DNA of 64,000 nt from Nitrososphaerota archaeon (lineage in GTDB: Archaea > Thermoproteota > Nitrososphaeria > Nitrososphaerales > Gagatemarchaeaceae): NCBI GenBank assembly GCA_029785825.1, contig JAFLYY010000001.1, positions 1,333,374-1,397,373 of the forward strand, in the 5' to 3' direction. Position numbers and translations under genes: made by a program. The notes under the pieces are model-generated. The model saw only the letters and a list, made by a program, of their open reading frames with translations. It made no database searches and was not told the origin of the DNA. Shown in pieces: positions 289-2,103 of the stretch. Positions within the stretch are counted from its first letter, which is position 1; the number at the start of each line of letters is the position of its first letter.

Positions 289-746
289 CTATATCTTCGT
301 CATCCAGAGCATGCGTCGTGCGGACGTTCGAGGAGCTTGTCGCAGAGGCGAACGCCGCGCCATTCGCACCTTCGGAGAACCGTCAGCGTCGAACAGGTCA
401 GGCAGAAGCTGTGCGATTGACGGTCCGCCTTCTTGTATGATAGCTTGGGGGAGGCGATGAAGCTGGTCTTTGGGGCCGGTGGGCAGTCCGACTCGTTCTG
501 CCTTTAACAACACGAGTTCCTTGGAGTGCGTCGCCTCGTACGCTGAGCCGTGTTCGGTCTGAGGGTGTTGAGATCGTACGGCTCCCTGACAAGAGGCACC
601 ACCTTGTCCCAGTAGAAACCATACTCTGAAGCTCTGTTCCCACTTGCGTAGCGGTAATGGGGCGGATAGCTGGTGAGGTTTCCATCGCCCAGGTGCAGCC
701 AGGTCTCGTAAGCTAGATCACGGCCAGAAAGTTTGGGGCCAATCAT
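289..746 (-). pseudogene. Frameshifted LAGLIDADG homing endonuclease remnant
   Basis: The first half starts at ATG 744-746 and reads LAYETWLHLGDGNL, then YRYASGNRASEYGFYWDKVV and PLVREPYD, a first LAGLIDADG helix with its acidic GDG followed by the typical beta-sheet region. Near position 541 the frame shifts. The second half reads HSKELVLLKAERVGLPTGPK, then HRLPQAI and LLPDLFDADGSPK, the second LAGLIDADG helix with DADG. Both catalytic acids survive, but no single frame joins the halves and the C-terminus degenerates after DADGSPK. Third codon positions are A/T-richer than in neighbouring genes, which suggests transfer. It lies 34 nt past the 3' end of a tRNA-Lys gene on the same strand. Confidence 0.72.
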
Positions 747-803
747 AGCAAGATGCCCCCTGACGAGAGGGCGAAGCAGGTGGCGGGCCCTGTGGGATTC
801 GAA

Positions 804-825
804 CTCGTGGGCGATTTGAGCGCCT
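804..825 (-). other. tRNA-Lys intron 2 (non-canonical, T arm 53/54, 22 nt)
   Basis: The intron splits the T stem from the T loop. The sequence folds as central helix CGTG/CACG, 3-nt bulges GGA and AGT, and inner helix GGCG/CGCC around a 7-nt loop, a relaxed bulge-helix-bulge. Cutting each bulge after its second base rejoins GTGGG to TTCGAAT and CCCAC, giving a perfect T arm. Multiple non-canonical tRNA introns are known in TACK archaea with heteromeric splicing endonucleases. Confidence 0.8.
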
Positions 826-841
826 CCCACGGCATGCTGGT

Positions 842-857
842 GACTCCCAAAGCTAGC
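842..857 (-). other. tRNA-Lys intron 1 (canonical 37/38 site, 16 nt)
   Basis: The intron lies after A37. Flanking pairing fits a bulge-helix-bulge: outer helix GCTGG/CCAGC, central 4-bp helix CTCT/GGAG (one G-U pair), 3-nt bulges TAG and TCA cut after their second base. Excision restores a 7-nt anticodon loop and a perfect 5-bp anticodon stem. A shorter reading without this intron (GCTGG/CTAGC stem) is possible locally but leaves an oversized variable region. Confidence 0.8.
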
Positions 858-1031
858 TAAGAGCCAGCCGCTCTAACCTGGCTGAGCCAAGGGCCCACCG
901 AGGACGCCGCCAATTAGCCGGAATTAAAAGCGTTCCCAACGCCATGGGGATCGGGCGAGCGGCGCCCCGATAAGGAGGCAATCAAAAATGGAAAGCCCCC
1001 CCCGCCGGAACGTCGACGAAACCATTCTGGA

Positions 1032-1042
1032 TTGATATAATG
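1032..1042 (+). promoter_or_regulatory. TATA-like promoter element for dphB
   Basis: An A/T island TTGATATAATG lies about 25-30 nt before the dphB ATG in a G+C-rich spacer, the distance expected for an archaeal TATA box with a nearly leaderless transcript. The rest of the 897-1062 spacer shows no gene. Confidence 0.45.
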
Positions 1043-1062
1043 GGAAGTCATAGGCAAGGACA

Positions 1063-2103
1063 ATGGGTCGTCTCTCCTTTGTCGGCCTCGGCCTAGGCGC
1101 CGAGGGGTTGACGCTCGAAGGCGTAGAAGAACTGAAGAAGGCCGACGTGGTCTATCTCGAGTACTATACCACCCCCCACGAGCCCAAGCTGCTCAACGAG
1201 TTGCAGAGGGCGACGGGGAGGATCCCCACGGTCGTGGACAGGGATTTCCTCGAGGATGGAGGGAGGATCTTGTCTGAAGCGGCGGGCCAGAAGGTTGCTC
1301 TCGCGGTCTTGGGGGACCCGATGATAGCCACCACGCACAACGAGCTGAGGGCGAGGGCGGTCAGGCAGGGGACGGAGACCAGGGTGGTCCACTCGGCGAC
1401 CATCGCCTCCGCCGCCGCGAGCTCATCTGGGCTCCATTCATACAAGTTCTCGCGGACCGTCACGGTGACCAGGGACTCGGTGGGGAAGCTGACGCAGGCG
1501 TACCACATCCTACATCAGAACCTCCTCGAAGGGGCGCACACTCTGCTGTTGCTGGAGTACGATGTTCAGAGCGGGGAAGGGGTTTCCCCGGCGGACGCCA
1601 TCGCGGGGCTCCTCTTGGCTGAGGGGAATTTCAAGCGGGGGGTGGTCAACGAAAGGACGCTCGGGCTGGTGCTTTCCAGGCTCGGACGGGAGGACGAGAG
1701 GCTAGCCGCCGGGAGTTTCGAAGCGCTGGCGAAGAAGGAATTCGGGGAGCCGCCGCACTGTATAGTGGTCCCTGGCAATCTCCATTTCACTGAGAAGGAG
1801 GCCGTGTCGGCGTTCTTCTCGGTGGCGGAGTCAGACCTCAGAGGGAACTCCGATGGCGTGCTGAGGACAGCCCAGACCCTGGTCCCCAGATACGTCGCAA
1901 AGACGAAGAGGGCGCTGGCTTCGGTGAAGCCGAAGCTGGGGACCGAGTACGAGCACGTGCTGGAGAACGCCGAGCTTTACATGAAGGACGCAGAGAGCTT
2001 CCTGGCGAACGGGGAGGACGAGATGGCCATGCTGAGCATCGGATATGCCGAAGGGCTTTTGGACTCCCTATCCTTCTCGGGGACCGTCAAGATTGACTGG
2101 TGA
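1063..2103 (+). CDS. dphB: Diphthine synthase fused to a C-terminal DUF357-type domain
   Basis: DphB/Dph5 uses S-adenosylmethionine to methylate the modified histidine of elongation factor 2 on the way to diphthamide. Residues 1-250 carry the family pattern: GLGLGAEGLTLEG near 8-20, GDPMIATTH at 84-92, and the late VPGNLHFTE segment. Diphthine synthases are usually about 255-270 residues; this protein has 346. The extra C-terminal helical part (YMKDAESFLANGEDEMAM, then GYAEGLLDSL) resembles DUF357, which elsewhere occurs as a separate small protein. The next gene starts 3 nt after the stop, so the two form an operon. The role of the fused domain is unknown. Confidence 0.9.
   Translation: MGRLSFVGLGLGAEGLTLEGVEELKKADVVYLEYYTTPHEPKLLNELQRATGRIPTVVDRDFLEDGGRILSEAAGQKVALAVLGDPMIATTHNELRARAVRQGTETRVVHSATIASAAASSSGLHSYKFSRTVTVTRDSVGKLTQAYHILHQNLLEGAHTLLLLEYDVQSGEGVSPADAIAGLLLAEGNFKRGVVNERTLGLVLSRLGREDERLAAGSFEALAKKEFGEPPHCIVVPGNLHFTEKEAVSAFFSVAESDLRGNSDGVLRTAQTLVPRYVAKTKRALASVKPKLGTEYEHVLENAELYMKDAESFLANGEDEMAMLSIGYAEGLLDSLSFSGTVKIDW

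Follow-up and report, generated by a model that had tools for sequence, protein, structure and literature searches.

The minus strand of the window (the whole 64,000-nt stretch analysed here) carries, from position 896 to 784, a tRNA-Lys(CUU) gene that is interrupted twice, once in the anticodon loop and once in the T arm. Very probably, this is a functional single-copy gene whose two bulge-helix-bulge (BHB) introns are spliced by an (alpha-beta)2 endonuclease and whose intron combination was inherited vertically, the other combinations found in related species having arisen by replacement. The features of the locus are listed in Table 1.

Table 1 Features of the tRNA-Lys(CUU) locus in the window (numbers of tRNA positions refer to the spliced molecule)
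Feature	Coordinates	Strand	Basis or remark
Exon 1, positions 1-37 (acceptor 5' strand, D arm, anticodon CTT)	858..896	-	Rfam, splice search
Intron 1, 16 nt, canonical site 37/38 (site C)	842..857	-	Splice search and BHB fit; relatives
Exon 2, positions 38-53	826..841	-	Splice search
Intron 2, 22 nt, T-arm site 53/54 (site D)	804..825	-	Splice search and BHB fit; covariation, 20 alleles
Exon 3, positions 54-73 (T loop, T-stem 3' strand, acceptor 3' strand, discriminator G)	784..803	-	
Encoded CCA	781..783	-	Not encoded in all orthologues
Intergenic block holding the tRNA gene	368..1062	.	Homology around the tRNA in presumed vertical CD and BCD relatives; replaced in G013
Presumed diphthine synthase gene (dph5; product assumed by us), divergent syntenic neighbour, used to track the locus in relatives	1063..2103	+	

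Anatomy of the gene and its two introns

The Rfam tRNA model (gathering score 29) matches positions 784-896 with 36.3 bits. ARAGORN calls a tRNA-Lys(ctt) and sets the gene end at 800, because a CCCAC inside intron 2 mimics the 3' strand of the T stem. To locate the introns, a splice search of our own enumerated the possible excisions at which a BHB central helix can form and scored the cloverleaf left by each. Exactly two introns were recovered (Table 1). Removal of both leaves a 75-mer with a complete cloverleaf (score 41.4), including a 7-bp acceptor stem, GGGCCCT/AGGGCCC. In the same search, the real gene scores 40.7 versus at most 20.7 in 300 shuffled genes. By this score, an acceptable cloverleaf is found neither for the unspliced gene nor for the form from which intron 1 alone is removed. 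The first-pass annotation had described a doubly interrupted gene, once in the T arm, with introns of the same position and length, 3-nt bulges at both junctions and no T stem before splicing. The splice search, the cloverleaf and the relatives treated below confirm this description in each of these points.

In the T-arm intron, the exon sequence CGTG (828-831) and the intron sequence CACG (806-809) form the central helix, the bulges are GGA and AGT, and GGCG (821-824) pairs with CGCC (810-813) in the inner helix; an outer helix is lacking. This strict BHB is equalled by 33 of 200,000 shuffled introns. In the anticodon intron, the central helix consists of exon CTCT (860-863) and intron GGAG (844-847), with bulges TAG and TCA; the anticodon stem lies outside the central helix and the inner helix is reduced to 1 bp. 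Such a fit is reached by 1,724 of 200,000 shuffles, and structure alone is poor evidence for this intron. Both junctions have the 4-bp central helix and the 3-nt bulges that characterize archaeal BHB introns. When the precursor is folded by itself, the two motifs are not present together in its minimum-energy structure.

The T-arm intron is further characterized by covariation. Its central helix is paired in all 20 distinct alleles of the site D intron. The inner helix shows compensatory double changes, from G-C to A-U in four alleles and from C-G to U-A in two, and pairing drops from 97% to 20-56% across the 20 alleles when the partners are slid by 1-3 columns. The tRNA-Lys(CUU) gene thus supplies a T-arm BHB intron that has well-defined boundaries and shows covariation.

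If the gene is expressed, as we infer, an (alpha-beta)2 endonuclease of the crenarchaeal broad-specificity type would cut both BHB motifs of the precursor, and a ligase, which we take to be of the RtcB type, would join the three exons. The T arm would form only after this joining.

tRNA introns and splicing endonuclease of the genome

The genome, a Nitrososphaerales MAG from an uncultured soil archaeon (1.97 Mb, 62% GC), has an estimated completeness of 100%. Interruption is the rule among its tRNA genes: 31 of the 40 located genes are interrupted (39 introns by automatic detection, about 42 after two genes were read by eye), in an incomplete census that covers searches and the stretches around tRNA matches and lacks about ten expected isoacceptors. 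The tRNA-Lys(CUU) gene is therefore typical of its genome. A 23-nt intron of tRNA-Gly(GCC) is likewise located at 53/54, and tRNA-Ser(GCU) has, as read by eye, a T-arm intron near 59/60. The first-pass annotation was right in placing two BHB introns in this gene, one of them in the rarely used T arm, but archaeal tRNA genes with a T-arm intron, or with as many as three introns, have been described before (PMC3293823, PMC8450103).

Intron load and intron type resemble those of Thermoproteales. Pyrobaculum calidifontis has 71 introns in 46 tRNA genes, up to three per gene, and the mean in Thermoproteales is 0.84 introns per tRNA gene (PMC8450103), similar to the value of about 1 per gene found here. 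Both share an (alpha-beta)2 endonuclease and genes with more than one short BHB intron, located at noncanonical as well as canonical sites. The present case differs in belonging to a family of Nitrososphaerales and in the wholesale switching of Lys alleles between sister species. The nearest known relatives of this kind of gene are found in Caldiarchaeum subterraneum and among thaumarchaeal noncanonical introns, where introns likewise occur in the D, V and T arms (PMC3293823; PMC8450103). In Caldiarchaeum, however, 13 of 45 genes are interrupted, compared with about 31 of the 40 located here. The kind of gene is thus already known, and the Lys(CUU) case adds an intron-rich family of Nitrososphaerales to the groups in which tRNA genes are multiply interrupted.

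Some other tRNA genes of the genome are worth recording. Three introns were read by eye in tRNA-Ser(GCU) (L100, G000:C1:1516285-1516589), namely in the D loop, at 29/30 and in the T loop near 59/60, and this gene is very weak in the standard tRNA model. tRNA-Lys(UUU) (L096, G000:C1:370952-371220) also has two introns, located in the D loop and the variable loop. On contig C2 (G000, 150895-151549; L024, L029, L011, L025, L006), five Leu/Ser-type tRNA genes are clustered, four of them intronless. They are apparently redundant with chromosomal tRNA genes, and the contig is possibly mobile or foreign. ARAGORN labels of interrupted tRNAs are unreliable, as a Thr(CGU) gene was labelled Lys(TTT). A T-arm pattern scan of the genome returned 1,477 matches at ≤1 mismatch and was uninformative.

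Genes for an alpha2beta2 splicing endonuclease, which the first-pass annotation had suggested looking for elsewhere in the genome, were found as two tRNA_int_endo paralogues, both with the domains PF01974 and PF02778. Two copies are likewise present in most genomes of the family. The alpha subunit (185 aa) matches the catalytic subunit of Aeropyrum pernix (3p1z, 1.6e-42). The catalytic His and Lys are kept, Tyr-His-Lys is complete in the alignment, and K40-P41-K42 aligns with K44-P45-R46 of the crenarchaea-specific loop of A. pernix. This loop, a Lys followed by Pro or Val and a basic residue, has been tied to broad specificity (PMC12397907). The beta subunit, a predicted frame of 238 aa, is divergent and has its catalytic His replaced. 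A broad-specificity enzyme, as proposed in the annotation, is well supported as a prediction, because a catalytic alpha subunit with the crenarchaeal lysine loop is accompanied by a beta subunit without the catalytic His. The tRNA-Lys(CUU) gene alone, from which this had been concluded, is no special evidence for it, since interruption is so common in the genome.

Intron combinations and probable allele replacement in the family

The anticodon-arm sequence CGGCTGGCTCTTA occurs once in the genome, so that no second exact match points to the further tRNA-Lys(CUU) with fewer introns considered at the outset. The sequence was found in 42 of 46 genomes of the family. The loci of relatives were aligned to the spliced sequence to define intron sites; G020, where two contig ends resemble a tRNA and an assembly break is the apparent cause, was excluded in this respect. 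Four main sites were distinguished: A (13-15, D loop), B (24-27), C (37/38) and D (53/54). Across 41 family genomes, the combinations are CD (13), BCD (10), AB (6), ABC (5), BC (2), B (2) and ABD (1), with one gene free of introns and one with B and an intron at 44. Site C is thus occupied in 30 and site D in 24 of the 41 orthologues. The number of introns per orthologue ranges from 0 to 3, and the combination switches wholesale between sister species. Wherever an orthologue lacks a given intron, its exon sequence is contiguous at that site, which fixes the exon-intron boundaries. The exons are intact across the family. In the other sampled families of the order, tRNA-Lys(CUU) is intronless or has the canonical intron alone. 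Two tRNA-Lys(CUU) genes lie 1.3 kb apart in G033 (contig C3, L106/L139); the 5' acceptor strand of one of them no longer pairs.

These comparisons bear on two other readings of the gene. The anticodon intron alone might be real, with the T arm using the CCCAC within the putative intron 2 and the gene ending at 800, as picked by ARAGORN. Such an end gives up the 7-bp acceptor stem, and in orthologues without the T-arm insert the T arm is uninterrupted at exactly the same point; comparative sequence refutes this reading, to which we assign hardly any probability. A pseudogene broken by insertions would account for a cloverleaf interrupted twice, and some relatives do carry degenerate Lys copies (G033 and the G027 remnant described below). 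It is nevertheless very unlikely, as the gene is the sole exact-match Lys(CUU) at 100% estimated completeness, its exons are intact across the family and the T-arm insert carries compensatory changes.

For a functional gene with two introns, the pair in the anticodon loop and T arm (the CD allele) would represent an old, vertically inherited state in the family, and the other combinations at the four main sites would result from repeated replacement of the locus in related species. The closest relative at dph5, G013 (89% identical protein), illustrates this. Its DNA is 91% identical to the window from the dph5 start onward and 86% identical over positions 1-367, with no match to 368-1062. In place of this block, G013 has a 1.7-kb non-homologous block with a broken LAGLIDADG gene and an AB-type tRNA-Lys. 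The CD allele of the window looks ancestral in this pair, because its homology to CD and BCD relatives continues from the tRNA onward into dph5 without interruption. A second swapped pair of sisters consists of G009 (AB with endonuclease) and G014 (CD). In G027 (L138, G027:C87:3300-4300), an intact ABC gene with its endonuclease is followed after ~50 bp by a CD-type gene of which the 3' half is left, and the match of this remnant to the window extends beyond the end of the tRNA. The remnant would be the displaced resident, and the pattern fits a CD gene replaced by an invading cassette.

LAGLIDADG genes adjoining tRNA genes

Free-standing LAGLIDADG genes abut tRNA-Lys(CUU) in ten genomes of four genera (L118, L129, L121, L055, L114, L107, L112, L115, L123, L128). 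They are located about 30-55 bp upstream of the tRNA on the same strand and are frameshifted or broken in four cases. In G010 and G023, an endonuclease gene lies downstream of tRNA-Lys, two cases too rare to judge. The proteins have a LAGLIDADG_3 domain with two LAGLIDADG-type motifs, in which GDG and YHAEGS are invariant, and their closest solved structures are of the I-DmoI type (4e-09). In a set of 300 genomes from the order, proteins of this type are confined to the window's own family (12 genomes), and all 10 of the 10 close homologues sit at tRNA-Lys(CUU). No LAGLIDADG gene was found near 30 tRNA loci of the own genome.

Endonuclease genes and intron sites are associated. The site B intron is present in 10 of 10 endonuclease-adjacent tRNA-Lys genes, and an endonuclease is found at 0 of 14 genes without it (Fisher p 0.0085); one of 24 genes with a D intron has an endonuclease versus 9 of 17 without (p 0.0005), both p-values being optimistic since the genomes are related. 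Independent contrasts between the endonuclease and the site B intron are concordant in 3-4 cases and discordant in none, too few for significance (p 0.125-0.25). Compared with CD alleles, endonuclease-bearing alleles have the site B intron and lack the usual GCTAGC...GGGAG form of intron C.

The cause of the allele replacement can be sketched conditionally. I-DmoI-like LAGLIDADG genes may parasitise tRNA genes, with BHB introns acting as immunity and as hitchhikers. The putative endonuclease would cut resident tRNA-Lys alleles such as that of the window, and its gene would be copied in together with the neighbouring tRNA-Lys gene, whose short BHB introns (at 24-27 and often also in the D loop) would break the recognition site. 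We regard this as a tentative and rather unlikely account. The LAGLIDADG genes may instead be passengers at a neutral site in freely recombining intergenic regions, which we consider plausible and just short of probable. Several LAGLIDADG-adjacent tRNAs are intronless, as expected for passengers, Gly(CCC) and two Ser(GCU) among them, and the independent contrasts are few. This sits less well with the close homologues all lying at one tRNA gene, with the lack of an endonuclease at all 14 site-B-minus genes and with intein-like LAGLIDADG controls, none of which (0/20) adjoins a tRNA.

The generality of the association was assessed in 20 free-standing LAGLIDADG frames of <400 aa from the family, with 20 in large intein-like frames as controls. 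Six of the 20 free-standing frames, and none of the controls, have an Rfam tRNA match nearby; a seventh adjoins SRP RNA and an eighth, as read by eye, a Ser(GCU) gene. Several endonuclease frames end 0-40 bp from the tRNA. Introns are present in the adjacent Met (a T-arm intron), two Ser(GCU), Thr and Phe genes and absent from Gly(CCC) and two other Ser(GCU) genes. A strict link between intron and endonuclease at every such tRNA is rejected by these intronless cases, and introns would therefore not be the sole form of resistance.

Free-standing homing endonuclease genes that adjoin tRNA genes and act on tRNA-gene DNA are known from SegB of phages T4 and T6 (PMC13096335). SegB is a phage-borne GIY-YIG enzyme, whereas the putative enzymes considered here are archaeal, I-DmoI-like LAGLIDADG proteins tied to BHB-intron alleles. 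Among the open-licence papers listed in the literature searches, none was seen to describe archaeal LAGLIDADG genes linked to tRNA genes. I-DmoI, which belongs to the endonucleases of archaeal rRNA introns, is encoded inside its own intron; the Lys-adjacent genes differ in lying outside. The new element would be allele turnover tied to external LAGLIDADG genes, as suggested by their distribution. If this is true, archaeal tRNA introns could be gained and turned over without an endonuclease inside the intron. The Lys locus would allow a direct test of how short archaeal tRNA introns arise and move, as one orthologous gene combines 0 to 3 introns, swapped sister alleles, a probable displaced remnant and an adjacent candidate mobile nuclease.

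Other free-standing LAGLIDADG genes beside a gene for a tRNA (Gly, Met, Ser, Thr or Phe) or for SRP RNA are found at L193, L195, L196, L197, L198, L205, L207, L210, L153, L155 and L159.
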